From positions 31,186 through 95,185 of the forward strand of contig CANQJL010000007.1 of NCBI GenBank assembly GCA_947624245.1: 64,000 bases of DNA, given 5' to 3'. A program made the translations under genes and the position numbers. Source of the DNA: an uncultured Acetatifactor sp. (GTDB lineage Bacteria > Bacillota > Clostridia > Lachnospirales > Lachnospiraceae). Below are positions 19,061-26,452 of the stretch, piece after piece. Numbering within the stretch: the first letter of the stretch is position 1; the number at the start of each line of letters is the position of its first letter. The notes beneath the pieces were generated by a model. The model had not been told where the DNA came from and searched no databases. It was given only the letters and a program-made list of their open reading frames with translations.

Positions 19061-19279
19061 TTACAGGGGCTGGTCTTCGTCGGAAGGAATGTATGTGGCA
19101 ATATCTTGGATATTACAATGCAATATACGGCAGAGATCGTTTAATGTGGTCGTGTTCAGTGGCTTATTTTTGCGGAGTTTATCTAAGATAGCACTGGAGA
19201 TGTGATGTTTGTTGATTAAGGAATAAGTCGTTTCTTCGGAAGCTTTTAACGTTACCCAAAAAGGACTGTAATCTATCAA
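19061..19279 (-). CDS. Small Cro/CI-type helix-turn-helix regulator
   Basis: IDYSPFWVTLKASEETTYSLINKHHISSAILDKLRKNKPLNTTTLNDLCRILHCNIQDIATYIPSDE matches the YozG-like small Xre HTH pattern; TTG start. Confidence 0.82.
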   Translation of the reverse strand: MIDYSPFWVTLKASEETTYSLINKHHISSAILDKLRKNKPLNTTTLNDLCRILHCNIQDIATYIPSDEDQPL

Positions 19280-19464
19280 TGCCCATCCTTCCTCTCATCT
19301 TCTTCTCTTCTTCTATTCTGTTGATTTCATTGTATTTTATTATTTGATACTTGACTATGGTCATGATTATGACTATAATAGACGGAGCAATTGTCATTAT
19401 GACCATTTCCGGAGGACTTATACCGGGAATGCGCAGGAAATATGAGGAAACAGTAAATAAGTGA

Positions 19465-19494
19465 TTGACGAGATTTCCTCGGGGGGGGTAGAAT
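19465..19494 (+). promoter_or_regulatory. Putative promoter P1: TTGACG-N18(with G8)-TAGAAT
   Basis: ttgacg agatttcctcgggggggg tagaat; homopolymer G8 at 19481-19488 occupies the spacer up to the -10. Confidence 0.7.
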
Positions 19495-19530
19495 AAGATA
19501 GTGAAAAACTCCCCGGACGGGAGAAAAAGC

Positions 19531-19558
19531 TTGACGGAGCTGTTCGGGGGGGTAGAAT
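19531..19558 (+). promoter_or_regulatory. Putative promoter P2: TTGACG-N16(with G7)-TAGAAT
   Basis: ttgacg gagctgttcggggggg tagaat; near-duplicate of P1 66 nt downstream; G7 at 19546-19552. Confidence 0.7.
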
Positions 19559-19592: not shown

Positions 19593-20477
19593 ATGGAATA
19601 CGGGAACGGACGGCATGAAAACAACATAGGCAAATTTATATTGGTGTTCGTGGCAGTCTGTCTTCTGATAGGCGTGACGGCCGGCGGCATTACCCTGTGG
19701 CAGATCCATCAGGAAAACAAGGCCCAGCAGGAAATGGAACAGCTTGCCGAGAAGACGTATGAACCGCAGGAAAGCGCGAGCCCGACGCCGCAGCCCACCA
19801 TGGAGCCGGAGGCAGAAGAGGAGGAACAGCCGGAAGGGTATCCGACGCCTGCCGATTTGGGCATTGAGGTTCCGGATAAGGAGCTGCACTTTACCGAGCT
19901 TAGGGAGACCAACTCGGATATTTACGCCTGGATCTGCATTCCGGATACAAAGATCGATTATCCCATTCTGCAGAGCGAGGAGGAGTTGGACTATTACCTT
20001 CAGACGAATCTGGACGGCTCCAAGGGATATCCGGGCTGCATCTATACCCAGATGATGAACAGCAAGGACTGGAGCGACAGGAACACGGTGATCTACGGTC
20101 ATAACATGGGAAACGGTACAATGTTCCAGAACCTTCATTATTATGAGGATCCGGAATTTTTTGAATCGCATCCTTATGTCTATATCTACACGGAGCAGGA
20201 GCTTTTGGTCTATCGGGTGTTCGCCGCATACGAGAACGACGACCGCCATGTGCTGCTCTACAACGACTTCAGTACGCCGGAAAGCTTTGAGGAATACATA
20301 GACAGAGTCTATGAAAAGGACGGGTTGAGCGATCATCTGGACGAGGACGCCAGACCCGGGGCGGAGGACCGCATCATTACGCTCTCCACCTGCATCAACA
20401 AAAAGCCCAACCGCCGCTGGCTGGTACAGGCGGTGCTTGCAGCACGGGAACCGTATGCGCCCGAGGCGCAGCAGTAA
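19593..20477 (+). CDS. srtB: Class B sortase
   Basis: N-terminal TM, DTKIDYPILQ, YGHNMGNGTMFQNLHYYEDPEFF, catalytic TLSTC with downstream Arg (RRWLVQAVL). Confidence 0.92.
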   Translation: MEYGNGRHENNIGKFILVFVAVCLLIGVTAGGITLWQIHQENKAQQEMEQLAEKTYEPQESASPTPQPTMEPEAEEEEQPEGYPTPADLGIEVPDKELHFTELRETNSDIYAWICIPDTKIDYPILQSEEELDYYLQTNLDGSKGYPGCIYTQMMNSKDWSDRNTVIYGHNMGNGTMFQNLHYYEDPEFFESHPYVYIYTEQELLVYRVFAAYENDDRHVLLYNDFSTPESFEEYIDRVYEKDGLSDHLDEDARPGAEDRIITLSTCINKKPNRRWLVQAVLAAREPYAPEAQQ

Positions 20478-20534: not shown

Positions 20535-21191
20535 ATGAAAGGAGGGATGCGAAAAGTGAAAAAGAGAATTTTGGCGTTGGTTTGTGCCGCTACAATGGTC
20601 ATGGGCATGAGCCTTACGGTATGCGCACAAGGAAGCGGCACTGCAGGAAAGACTGCACAAAATGCTGTGGCGCAGCAGAGCACTGAGATCGTCAGCATAG
20701 AGAACAACACAGGTCAGACACTGTCCGCTGCAACGATCGCAAGCTTTGCCGAGACTACCGGCATCGCTGCCGGCGTGCAGGGCGCTACGATCGAGGCCGT
20801 TCCTACCAATACGGCAAAGGCAATGATCGCCGAAGCGAACAATCAGGTCGGTGCAAATACCTTCATTGCGGCAGTAGTGGATCTGAAGGTTCCCGCCGGC
20901 ACAGGCACGGCGACCTTTACACTGACCTGCCCTAACGTATGGGCGGGACAGAAAGTGACCATTCTCCATCTGAAATCCGATGGTACCTATGAGATGATCA
21001 CTCCCAGCAATGTGGCAAATAATTCCGTAACCTTTACTATGACGTCTTATTCACCGATTGCAATTGTAATCGATACTGCAGCGTCGCCCAAGACCGGAGA
21101 CGACGGCCTGGCAGCAGGCGCTATGATCGCCCTGATGGCCATGGCTGCGGCAATGGCAGGTGCGGTTGCTTACAGAAAAGTAAGAGCATAG
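20535..21191 (+). CDS. Secreted surface protein with SPKTG sortase sorting signal (start likely GTG 20556)
   Basis: Signal peptide (KKRILALVCAATMVMGMSLTVCAQ), C-terminal SPKTGDDGLAAGAMIALMAMAAAMAGAVAYRKVRA sorting signal. Confidence 0.88.
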   Translation: MKGGMRKVKKRILALVCAATMVMGMSLTVCAQGSGTAGKTAQNAVAQQSTEIVSIENNTGQTLSAATIASFAETTGIAAGVQGATIEAVPTNTAKAMIAEANNQVGANTFIAAVVDLKVPAGTGTATFTLTCPNVWAGQKVTILHLKSDGTYEMITPSNVANNSVTFTMTSYSPIAIVIDTAASPKTGDDGLAAGAMIALMAMAAAMAGAVAYRKVRA

Positions 21192-21261: not shown

Positions 21262-22326
21262 ATGAGTTGGAGCCTGAGGATCCGCAAAATCCTGACATGG
21301 ATCATACTGACTGTTTCGGCCGTTATCTTTGTAGGTGCAATGGCTTTTCTGGCGCTGCAGATATCCGGCAGAAGGCGTCTGGAGCAGAAGACCTGCGGGA
21401 CCGTGCCCTGTCTTTCCGGGACGGAGCCTGTGGAGGCCGGCGTGCTGTCGGAGGACTGGCAGGAGGGAGACGTACTGTATCAGGGCGTGCACTACCGCTA
21501 CAACAGCGATATCCTGACCTTCCTTTTCTTCGGAATCGACCGCAGGGAGGAAGCAGGGGACGCAAAGACCGACGTCGGTCGTGCGGACGCTGTTTTTCTT
21601 CTGGTCCTGGATCCCCATACCAAGGAAATGTCTGTGATCGGTGTGGACAGGAACACCGTGGCGGACGTGGATGTATATGACCGTGACGGCACGTTCGTGG
21701 CAACGGAAAAGCTGCCGTTATGCCTTCAGTATACCTACGGCGACGGTCTGCATGTAAGCTGTGAGCGTTCCGAGGCAGCGGTCTCCGGACTTTTCTACGA
21801 GCTTCCCATCAACGGCTATGCGGCCGTCAATATGGGGGCGATTCCTATGATTAATGCCACTGTGGGCGGCGTCAAGGTCACCGCGCTGGAGGACCTTGCG
21901 GAAAGCGGAATCAGGAAAGGGGAGGAAGTGCTTCTTGACGACAGATCCTCCTATGCCTATCTGCATGACCGTGACGAACAGATGCCGGGGAGCGCACGCC
22001 TGCGGCTTCAGAGACAGCTGCAGTACGTGACCGCCTATTGCGAGACGGCTCTTGCCTCCCTGAAAGAGAATCCCGCACTGCCCATCGAGCTTTTTCGGGT
22101 TCTCGAAAAATATATGGTCACGGACATCTCTGTGGACGAGGTAAGCTATCTGGCCACGCAGGTGGCGGATTACACATTCAACGAGCAGATGATCTATCTG
22201 CCGGAGGGAGAGACGCTGCAGACGGAGGATTCCGTCAGGGATACTTCCGGCGAAGTCTTCTATCCGGACGAGACGTCCCTTTATGAGATGATGCTGAAGG
22301 TCTTTTATGAGGAAGTGAAAAAGTAG
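21262..22326 (+). CDS. LytR-CpsA-Psr (LCP) family protein
   Basis: N-terminal TM, FLFFGIDRREEAGD...RADAVFLLVLDPHTKEMSVIGVDRNT and YAAVNMGAIPMINATVGGVKV. Confidence 0.85.
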   Translation: MSWSLRIRKILTWIILTVSAVIFVGAMAFLALQISGRRRLEQKTCGTVPCLSGTEPVEAGVLSEDWQEGDVLYQGVHYRYNSDILTFLFFGIDRREEAGDAKTDVGRADAVFLLVLDPHTKEMSVIGVDRNTVADVDVYDRDGTFVATEKLPLCLQYTYGDGLHVSCERSEAAVSGLFYELPINGYAAVNMGAIPMINATVGGVKVTALEDLAESGIRKGEEVLLDDRSSYAYLHDRDEQMPGSARLRLQRQLQYVTAYCETALASLKENPALPIELFRVLEKYMVTDISVDEVSYLATQVADYTFNEQMIYLPEGETLQTEDSVRDTSGEVFYPDETSLYEMMLKVFYEEVKK

Positions 22327-22342
22327 GAACAGGTGAGCTGTT

Positions 22343-23797
22343 ATGTACAAAAAACGGCCGCAGGGGTGGTTAAAACATCTTGATTTCATCATGCTGGATC
22401 TTTTATGTCTGTGCGCGGCGTTCAGTCTTGCGTATGCCGTCAGACAGGGCGATTTCCGATTCCTGGAAAACGCCGCCTACCGCAGCCTTGGCCTGGTGGT
22501 CCTGCTGGGTGACATCGGGGTCATAACGGCCTCCAATACTTTTAAAAATGTGCTGAAAAGAGACTTCTACCGGGAATTTTCCGTGACGGTGAAGCATGTC
22601 TGCATTTTGGAAGCGATCGTGATCGTGTACCTGTTCGCAATCAGGGGGAGCGTCACCTATTCCAGGATCTTTGTGGGTCTGCTGGGAGTCTTCTATTTTC
22701 TGTTCAGCTGCCTTTCGAGAATGCTGTGGAAAAGGCGCCTGCGCAATACCATGGGCGCGGTGGGAAGGAATTCTCTCATGATCGTGACCTCAAAGGACAG
22801 CGTAAATGAGATCGCAAGGAACATTATAGATAAAAATTACGAAAAGTTCCGCTTGGCCGGACTCGCCGTCTTAGACAGCGATATGCGCGGCCGGACGGCG
22901 GCAGGGATTCCGGTCATCGCCGGACGAGAGGACGTAGTGGAATGTGTCTGCCGCAGCTGGATCGATGAGATCCTGATCTGTCTTCCTGAGAATGAGATAG
23001 AGGGGATTCGGGAACTGACCGAAAAGTTCATGGAGATGGGCGTGGCGGTCCATACGGTCCTTTATCAGGCATTGGAGAATAAGGGTCAGAAGCAGTTCGT
23101 GGAACGGATCTTTAATTATACGGTGCTGACCAACAGCATCAATTACGCCACCCAGACCCAGCAGATGATCAAGCGGGGGCTGGATATTGCAGGGGGCCTT
23201 GTGGGAAGTCTGATCACCTGTGTGCTGTTTTTGTTCCTGGCGCCCGTAATCTATATCCTTTCGCCGGGACCTATCTTTTTTAAACAGGAGAGGGTAGGGA
23301 AAGGCGGGAAGCGTTTCCGGATGTATAAGTTCCGCAGCATGTATCCGGATGCAGAGGAACGCAAAAAAGAGCTGATGGAGAAGAACCGCGTGCGGAGCGG
23401 ATTGATGTTCAAGGTGGAGGAGGACCCCAGAATCATCGGCAGCAGGGTGCTGCCGGACGGTACGGTCAAGAAAGGATTCGGGAATTTTATTCGGGATTAC
23501 AGCCTGGACGAGTTTCCCCAGTTCTTCAATGTGCTCAAGGGGGATATGAGCCTTGTGGGGACCAGGCCGCCCACTGTGGACGAATGGGAGCGCTATGATC
23601 TCCATCACAGGGCGAGACTGGCGATTCGGCCGGGCATCACCGGCTTGTGGCAGATCAGCGGCAGAAGCAACATCACCGATTTTGAAGAAGTGGTGAAGCT
23701 GGATACACAATACATCACGAAATGGAGCATGGGACTGGACTTAAGGATCCTGTGGAAGACGGTTGGCGTGGTGTTGAAAAGACGGGGGTCGAGGTGA
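22343..23797 (+). CDS. Exopolysaccharide polyprenyl-phosphate sugar phosphotransferase (WbaP/CpsE-like)
   Basis: Multi-TM N-terminus, KRGLDIAGGLVGSLI, GKGGKRFRMYKFRSMYPDAEERK, SLDEFPQFFNVLKGDMSLVGTRPPTVDEWERY, RPGITGLWQISGRS. Confidence 0.93.
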   Translation: MYKKRPQGWLKHLDFIMLDLLCLCAAFSLAYAVRQGDFRFLENAAYRSLGLVVLLGDIGVITASNTFKNVLKRDFYREFSVTVKHVCILEAIVIVYLFAIRGSVTYSRIFVGLLGVFYFLFSCLSRMLWKRRLRNTMGAVGRNSLMIVTSKDSVNEIARNIIDKNYEKFRLAGLAVLDSDMRGRTAAGIPVIAGREDVVECVCRSWIDEILICLPENEIEGIRELTEKFMEMGVAVHTVLYQALENKGQKQFVERIFNYTVLTNSINYATQTQQMIKRGLDIAGGLVGSLITCVLFLFLAPVIYILSPGPIFFKQERVGKGGKRFRMYKFRSMYPDAEERKKELMEKNRVRSGLMFKVEEDPRIIGSRVLPDGTVKKGFGNFIRDYSLDEFPQFFNVLKGDMSLVGTRPPTVDEWERYDLHHRARLAIRPGITGLWQISGRSNITDFEEVVKLDTQYITKWSMGLDLRILWKTVGVVLKRRGSR

Positions 23798-23836
23798 GAG
23801 GGGAAATCAAAGCGGATATTGTCCGGAAAGAGGAAA

Positions 23837-25039
23837 ATGATGAGATATAACAGCTCACAATATGAGGAAAGCATCGATATTGCAGCGCTTGCAGCCGGTA
23901 TCCTGCGCAAGAGATGGAGGCTGATTCTTGCCTGTGCGGCGGGCGCCCTGCTGCTGGGACTGTATAAGGGAGTGCTGCACCCGGGCAGCGCAGGAGATGC
24001 GGCACAGATCTCGCAGCTTCAGGAGGAGATTTCCAAGAACAATGAGACGCTTGCCAAGAATGAGAGCGACATTACGGCTCATGGATTTACGATTGCGGCG
24101 GATCAGGAAAAGATCGCAGCCAACGACGAGCTGATCGCGACGCAGCAGGAGCTGCGCACGGCACAGCAGGAGAAGCTGGAAGCGCTGCGGGCCGATCGTG
24201 ACAGGAACCAGGCGGTACTGAACGACGCCAATGCAACGCCGGAGCAGACAGAGGACGCCAACAATCGGCTGCTTACCTTGGCGAACGATATCGTGAATGC
24301 CGAGAATCAGCTCAATACGATCGTGACCCAGATCACCAACGCCCAGAAGGATACCGCCAATCTGCAGGCGGAGATCGACAAGCTGAGAGCCACTGACAGC
24401 ACGCTGGAGGAGGCCAATGCGGGGCTTCAGGAAGAGATCGGAGCGCAGAACGCCCAACTGGCAGAGCTGCAAGGCAGCGGCGGCACGGGACAGACCGTTA
24501 AATACGCCGTGCTTGGCGGCATATTGGGAATCCTGTTCGTCTGCGGCATCGGTCTGCTGCAGTTTCTCTTCAGCAAGAAGCTGCGCTGCTCCGAGGAGTT
24601 GCGGGAGAAGTACGACCTGCCCGTCTTGGGGGAATTCTGCTCCGCCGCGGCGCAGAAGCACGGAAGATTTGATAAGATGCTGGATCGCCTCTCCGGCGAC
24701 GTACAGACGCTCCCCGACAAGAACAATGTGTACGATCTCATTGCCGCCGGGATTCAGGCGGCAGGGCAGCCGCTGCCCATGCGGCTGGCCGTGACGGGCA
24801 CCGTGGACGAGAAGGTCCTGCGGGAGGTGAGCGGCTGGCTCTGTAAATTCCTGCCGGAGGAATATGAGGTCCTCATGGCCTCCAATCCCGTCTACAACGC
24901 AGGGTTCCTTGCGGAAATCAGGCAGTATACGGTGCTGCTGGTGGAGATGAAGCAGATTTCCGATAAAAGGGAGATCGACAAGCTGGCCGACGTACTGTGC
25001 CGCAATGAGGTCAATGTGATCGGCGCCGTGGTACTGTGA
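23837..25039 (+). CDS. Wzz-like chain-length determinant / coiled-coil membrane protein
   Basis: N-terminal TM (RWRLILACAAGALLLGLYKG), long coiled coil, second TM (YAVLGGILGILFVCGIGLLQFLF), position after the sugar transferase. Confidence 0.72.
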   Translation: MMRYNSSQYEESIDIAALAAGILRKRWRLILACAAGALLLGLYKGVLHPGSAGDAAQISQLQEEISKNNETLAKNESDITAHGFTIAADQEKIAANDELIATQQELRTAQQEKLEALRADRDRNQAVLNDANATPEQTEDANNRLLTLANDIVNAENQLNTIVTQITNAQKDTANLQAEIDKLRATDSTLEEANAGLQEEIGAQNAQLAELQGSGGTGQTVKYAVLGGILGILFVCGIGLLQFLFSKKLRCSEELREKYDLPVLGEFCSAAAQKHGRFDKMLDRLSGDVQTLPDKNNVYDLIAAGIQAAGQPLPMRLAVTGTVDEKVLREVSGWLCKFLPEEYEVLMASNPVYNAGFLAEIRQYTVLLVEMKQISDKREIDKLADVLCRNEVNVIGAVVL

Positions 25040-25078
25040 CGGAGTGAAGCGGTATCGTGAATGGAAAGGAACTAATAT

Positions 25079-26452
25079 ATGAACATTAGTTTTTTTGGTC
25101 TCGGATATGTGGGGTGTGTTGGAGCGGCATGTTGTGCCAGACTTGGGCATCATGTAATAGGAACGGATGTTTCGAAGAACAAAGTGAGTCTTATAAATCA
25201 AGGGCGCCCGACTATTATCGAGGCCGAGATAGAGGAACTGATAAAAGAAGCTCATGATAATGGCAGACTGGAAGCCACTATGGACTTTCGTTATGCGGTG
25301 ATGCACTCGGAGATTTCATTTATCGTCGTCGGAACGCCGAGCAGTAAGGAAGGGCATCTTAATCTGGATTATGTATATGCTGTAGCGCGACAGATAGGGG
25401 AGGCACTCCGAGAGAAGAAAGAATTTCACATTATCGCTATCAGAAGTACTGTCTTGCCCGGCACGAACCAGACAGTGGGAAAAATGATTGAAGAAGCATC
25501 AGGAAAAAAGAGAAATCAGGACTTTACAGTCGTGTCTAATCCGGAATTTCTTCGCGAGGGCACGGCAGTTCATGATTATATGAATCCGCCTTTTACGCTA
25601 ATCGGAACTGACAGTGAATTGGCGGAAAGCAGCTTCAGGGAATTATATAAAGATATTCCGGGCGAGTTCATATCTACTGATATTGAAGTCGCCGAAATTA
25701 TGAAGTATGTCAATAACACATATCACGGACTGAAAATCGTATTTGCAAATGAAGTGGGAAATATTTGCAAGGCGTTAAATATTGACAGTCATAAGGTCAT
25801 GGAGATTTTTTGCAAAGACAGGCAGTTAAATATCTCGCCATACTATTTTAAGCCGGGCTTTGCATATGGCGGATCCTGTCTGCCGAAGGATTCCAGAGCG
25901 CTGCGCACGCTGGCACACGATTTGTATATTGATGTACCGGTGATAGATGCGATTCACCCATCCAACGAAATCCAGAAAAAGAATGCCGTTGAGATTATTG
26001 AGAGCAAGGGAAAGCGAAAAATCGGAATTCTCGGCTTAAGCTTCAAAGCAGGGACGGACGATCTGCGATGCAGTCCAATTGTAGATGTGGCGGAAGTATT
26101 ATTGGGCAAGGGTTACGAGATTAGTATCTATGACAGAAATGTCAAAGTATCTCAGCTCACAGGGACGAATGCGGATTTCATTGCTGCAAAGCTGCCGCAT
26201 CTGCATGAGATGATTTCAGATGATTTGGATGCGGTCTGCAGGGAAAGTGATGTATTGGTCATTGCAAATAAGGAAAGAGAGTTTGATGAACTTCCCCAAA
26301 GGCATCCGCACAAGATAATTGTGGACTTAGTCCGTCAATTCACAGAGCTTGATTATGACGGAAACTATGAAGGCATAAGCTGGGCGAATATTAATATCAA
26401 CTCTGCACAAAACGACCTGCCGGTAAAAGATATGGAAAAAATAGAATTCTAG
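25079..26452 (+). CDS. Nucleotide-sugar dehydrogenase (UDP-glucose/GDP-mannose dehydrogenase family)
   Basis: MNISFFGLGYVGCVGAACCARLGHHVIGTDV, NPEFLREGTAVHDYMNPP, FKPGFAYGGSCLPKDSRAL. Confidence 0.93.
   Translation: MNISFFGLGYVGCVGAACCARLGHHVIGTDVSKNKVSLINQGRPTIIEAEIEELIKEAHDNGRLEATMDFRYAVMHSEISFIVVGTPSSKEGHLNLDYVYAVARQIGEALREKKEFHIIAIRSTVLPGTNQTVGKMIEEASGKKRNQDFTVVSNPEFLREGTAVHDYMNPPFTLIGTDSELAESSFRELYKDIPGEFISTDIEVAEIMKYVNNTYHGLKIVFANEVGNICKALNIDSHKVMEIFCKDRQLNISPYYFKPGFAYGGSCLPKDSRALRTLAHDLYIDVPVIDAIHPSNEIQKKNAVEIIESKGKRKIGILGLSFKAGTDDLRCSPIVDVAEVLLGKGYEISIYDRNVKVSQLTGTNADFIAAKLPHLHEMISDDLDAVCRESDVLVIANKEREFDELPQRHPHKIIVDLVRQFTELDYDGNYEGISWANININSAQNDLPVKDMEKIEF

Follow-up and report, generated by a model that had tools for sequence, protein, structure and literature searches.

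The two promoters that precede a class B sortase gene in the 64,000-nucleotide stretch analyzed here (the window) belong to a Lachnospiraceae promoter class, genome-wide and family-wide in occurrence, that carries a run of G residues next to the -10 hexamer. P1 (TTGACG-N10-G8-TAGAAT, positions 19465..19494, + strand) has its -35 hexamer at 19465-19470, its -10 hexamer at 19489-19494, and a spacer of 18 nt, and P2 (TTGACG-N9-G7-TAGAAT, 19531..19558, + strand) has the corresponding hexamers at 19531-19536 and 19553-19558, with a spacer of 16 nt. Both the G8 run of P1 (19481..19488, + strand) and the G7 run of P2 (19546..19552, + strand) directly adjoin the -10, the distance from P1 to P2 is 66 nt, and GGGGGGGTAGAATAAG is common to both units. 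An earlier note on this DNA had given the sequences, coordinates, spacers, distance, and common flanks exactly, and both units fit the layout of a sigma-A promoter whose spacer contains a G run. Each agrees with the sigma-A hexamers at 10 of 12 positions (near-consensus -35 and -10), and each has a homopolymer between the hexamers, where slippage would alter the spacing. Neither has the 17-nt spacer that is the mode of ordinary sigma-A promoters in these genomes.

We found that the number of G7 runs in the window does not exceed chance (8 versus 9.65 expected) and that G5 or more followed directly by TANAAT occurs twice, versus 0.11 expected. Across the source genome (2.53 Mb), TTGAC-N-G5+-TANAAT has 11 matches and the reversed pattern has 0, and this result, together with the excess in the window, rules out chance G runs as the explanation. 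With a twelfth site found at one mismatch, the genome contains 12 class promoters in total, which account for 12 of its ∼55 G runs of at least 7. Exactly G7 and a spacer of 16 were found in 11 of the 12 sites, including P2; the exception is P1, whose G8 run is unique among them. When up to three mismatches to the spacer-16 G7 form were allowed, the source genome yielded ten perfect sites, one site with one mismatch, and none with two, and this near absence of near-miss sites indicates that the form is sharply defined. On a wider scale, a scan of the genus gave at least one match (G5 or more) in 53 of 138 genomes, with about 145 distinct sites analyzed, and a scan of the family gave 45 positive genomes out of 396, spread over 42 of the 280 sampled genera; both scans fix TTGAC and TANAAT and therefore miss variants such as TATACT. 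Since the same pattern recurs across the genome and the genus, P1 and P2 are not an isolated local pair.

The logo of the class contains only the -35, the G run, and the -10, with DNA rich in A upstream and C favored immediately ahead of the run; beyond the core promoter, no operator or conserved motif is visible. The G run is found on the non-template strand only, adjoining the -10: the C-run version of the search gave 7 matches in the genus versus about 150 among the G matches listed, and few long runs among the matches listed lie away from the -10. Ordinary promoters of these genomes show a sharp spacer peak at 17 (39 of 53 among spacers of 16 to 18), whereas short-tract members of the class have a spacer of 16 in 60 cases versus 17 in 9 cases (p 7e-14). 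In species whose runs are longer (G9 to G12), the spacer measures 19 to 20 nt, and across the remainder of the family, 19 is the most frequent value. The 17-nt optimum is thus under-represented in the class, as the modes are 16 for short tracts and 19 for the rest of the family. The -10 hexamer is skewed to TARAAT, its third base being A in 24 and T in 4 class promoters versus A in 7 and T in 27 ordinary promoters, which usually have T at this position (p 5e-7). Simple slippage does not explain these biases in strand, spacer, and -10. Several candidate explanations of the locus were dropped, namely, CsoR/RcnR-type operators, with TAC and GTA flanking the G run (the left half-site is unconserved), MerR-type promoters (the spacer has no inverted repeat), an Rfam RNA or riboswitch (the search gave none), and an unusually folded leader (z -1.0).

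We then examined the genes located under class promoters. A signal-like, lipoprotein, or membrane segment was called in 89 of 132 downstream open reading frames, by a simple hydrophobicity rule used without a matched background, and the genes concerned include those for lipoproteins, zinc-ribbon membrane proteins, LCP proteins, and the present sortase. The only other tandem pair seen lies in genome G132, where a response-regulator gene (L076:1378-1902, minus strand) is preceded by a G7 and a G6 promoter separated by about 54 nt; its product is a candidate regulator of the class. In genome G144, three paralogous membrane-anchored repeat proteins have their own G7 promoter each (L085:1660-5912, minus strand). 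In other Clostridia (CALVOK, CALVNW, and CAJFOL), we found a G8-spacer promoter that runs into the palindrome TAAAATAGGGTATC...GATACCCTATTTTA (L146:459-498, L187:4850-4892, L197:59-97, and L205:1294-1332). This promoter-palindrome unit occurs in many near-identical copies per genome and is probably a dispersed element carrying a promoter of this kind.

The gene downstream of P1 and P2 (srtB, 19593..20477, + strand) passes the curated class B sortase model TIGR03064 (164.2 bits versus a cut-off of 153.75) and also matches Pfam Sortase, which confirms the assignment made in the earlier note. It is followed by a gene for an exported protein (20535..21191, + strand) and then by one for a LytR-CpsA-Psr protein. 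The exported protein has a C-terminal SPKTG, a hydrophobic segment, and a positive tail, scores 14.7 bits for LPXTG_anchor, just under the cut-off of 15.9, and from these features is a likely substrate of the sortase. After the sortase gene and the gene for the SPKTG protein, positions 21262-26452 of the window contain LCP, sugar transferase, chain-length-type, and UDP-glucose dehydrogenase-like genes and resemble a surface polysaccharide cluster. Sortase homologues in other species mostly lack the upstream G run, the exceptions being those of genomes G143 and G129 (where it is shifted), so that the run goes with the promoter class rather than with the sortase gene. We found no close orthologue for comparing the tracts of srtB itself.

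The best promoter match upstream of srtB, absent from the earlier note, is P0 (TTGACT-17-TATAAT, 19351..19379, + strand), a canonical sigma-A-type promoter that lies upstream of P1 and has 11 of 12 matches and a spacer of 17. An operator-like palindrome, GTCATGATTATGAC, is located inside the P0 spacer (19360..19373), and a second one, GTCATTATGAC, is located at 19393..19403; both may serve as operators. A gene encoding a 72-aa Cro/C1-type HTH protein (19061..19279, - strand; Pfam HTH_26, E 6e-11) is divergent from P0, and positions 19061-19403, with this gene, P0, and the two palindromes placed upstream of the sortase, resemble a repressor-operator unit. The + strand has no terminator-like site from P0 to srtB. 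From this arrangement, P0 and the adjacent HTH protein likely provide a second, regulated input to srtB, with the HTH_26 protein as the putative regulator of P0.

Tract lengths range from the G7 and G8 at srtB to G9 to G12 in other species of the class, and we looked at how they change between two pairs of sister species, G130/G142 and G092/G093 (6 to 8% substitutions, 308 kb aligned). In these pairs, 5 of 10 orthologous class tracts differ, each by exactly one G, and in several orthologue pairs, N9 is identical and the G count alone differs. By comparison, among 64 A/T runs (6 or longer) in intergenic DNA, 9 differ (p 0.017), the G/C control being too small to use, as 10 of the 11 G/C runs of at least 7 in the aligned 308 kb are class promoters. 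Class tracts thus differ in length between close relatives more than other sequence does. In more diverged orthologues, tract length differs no more than in sister species; since greater divergence brings no greater length difference, the run appears to be held near a set-point. Of the variance in tract length, 86% lies between genomes (29 genomes with two or more sites), a value to be read with the reduced independence of paralogous sites and possible assembly errors in long runs in mind. In the source genome, G7 is kept in three diverged copies before zinc-ribbon genes.

We favor, at about even confidence, the proposal that a slippage-prone spacer tunes the promoter strength of envelope genes. 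The G run puts the spacing of sigma-A-type hexamers off the 17-nt optimum, and slippage would then make P2 stronger by the gain of one G and P1 stronger by the loss of one. The point made in the earlier note, that P2 would reach 17 through the gain of one G, fits the peak at 17 in the ordinary promoters of these genomes. The output of srtB would differ heritably from lineage to lineage and perhaps also inside a population, and in the source genome, with its G7 tracts, length change is probably slow. Such tuning is supported by the one-G differences in half of the sister-species tracts, which exceed those of other runs, as well as by the sharp definition and wide occurrence of the class, the contrast between its short-tract spacer peak at 16 and the ordinary peak at 17, the many exported or membrane products, and the known poly-G spacers of tp0126 and porA. 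Against it stand the near-uniform lengths within a genome, the shortness of G7 for fast slippage, and the near absence of C runs, as slippage is indifferent to strand; the length set-point across diverged orthologues and, by analogy, the slow clade-wise change in Cutibacterium acnes (PMC4746626) also speak against it. The strand specificity and the set-points are better explained by the main rival, which we regard as possible but doubtful, namely, that the G run serves a regulon as a recognition or structural feature, that the -35, the G run, and the -10 are read together by a dedicated regulator or through some species-specific trait of RNA polymerase, and that slippage is incidental. The geometry would then be fixed, with a spacer of 16 in the source clade and 19 in others, in line with the position of the run against the -10, the class-specific third base of the -10, the large share of length variance between genomes, and the scarcity of 17-nt spacers. 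The strand bias could, however, also be obtained from a single origin followed by dispersal, the regulator is hypothetical, the class shows no conserved motif besides the core promoter, and orthologous sites lie one G apart between sister species. We tentatively suggest a distinct Lachnospiraceae promoter class in which the polymerase or a dedicated factor would read the -10 together with the adjoining G run of the non-template strand, the length of the run having a set-point for each species (spacer of 16 or 19, depending on the clade), so as to form a genome-wide surface-gene regulon adjustable by slippage.

The earlier note had proposed P1 and P2 as a candidate phase switch, in which frequent and reversible gain or loss of a G would turn srtB on or off in single cells, and our analysis partly supports this interpretation. 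The layout and the type of gene match those of known contingency promoters, tract lengths are labile between sister species, and in mice, a gut Gram-positive bacterium, Bifidobacterium breve, controls its sortase pili by slippage of a G run (PMC9187656). However, the G7 of P2 is shorter than the G10-G11 tract of B. breve, nearly all source-genome sites are G7, including the three diverged copies before zinc-ribbon genes, and P1, P2, and P0 buffer one another. Promoters with spacers of 16 and 18 are usually still active, and because both P1 and P2 deviate from the optimum by a single nucleotide, neither is clearly off; we consider single-cell switching of srtB unlikely. As P0 is the best match and is accompanied by palindromes and a divergent HTH_26 gene, with no terminator-like site before srtB, transcription of the gene might instead start at P0, controlled by the divergent HTH protein, or at plain constitutive P1 and P2, the G runs being neutral passengers. 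This we judge very improbable, as neutrality accounts neither for the same position of the run in a dozen unrelated promoters of a single genome nor for its constancy at G7 while the adjoining N9 diverges.

Our literature search, which covered open-licence papers only, found no description of this class in Firmicutes, Clostridia, or Lachnospiraceae. The poly-G-spacer promoters that it did find are single contingency loci of pathogens, whereas here gut Firmicutes have a coherent class, with about a dozen members per genome, located before envelope genes and with a tract length that is set by species and off the promoter optimum. The class allows a direct test of whether promoter slippage is a means of surface diversification in common gut commensals or whether the G run is a geometric recognition element.

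Among known systems, transcription of tp0126 in Treponema pallidum and of porA in Neisseria meningitidis is controlled through poly-G spacers whose optimum is 17 (PMC7864442). The parallels drawn in the earlier note are looser than it stated: the poly-C tract of opc spans the -35 (PMC7864442). Like tp0126 and porA, the class has a G run between the -35 and the -10, a spacer that changes around the 17-nt optimum, and surface genes downstream; unlike these single loci, for which length heterogeneity and expression effects were shown, it comprises about a dozen members per genome, which in the source genome have short, nearly uniform tracts. P1 and P2 have a layout of the tp0126 type and are candidate phase-variable promoters. 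C. acnes HPT_37 is likewise a homopolymer in a promoter spacer of a Gram-positive bacterium, with strain differences in length and expression, but it is a C run of 5 or 7 at one locus, without a genome-wide class, and C. acnes tracts follow clades and change slowly (PMC4746626). The pilus switch of B. breve shares with the class a gut Gram-positive host, a G run, and a sortase-linked surface function; slippage in vivo is that of B. breve, and its tract lies inside a coding sequence, where it acts as a frameshift switch and not as a promoter spacer (PMC9187656).
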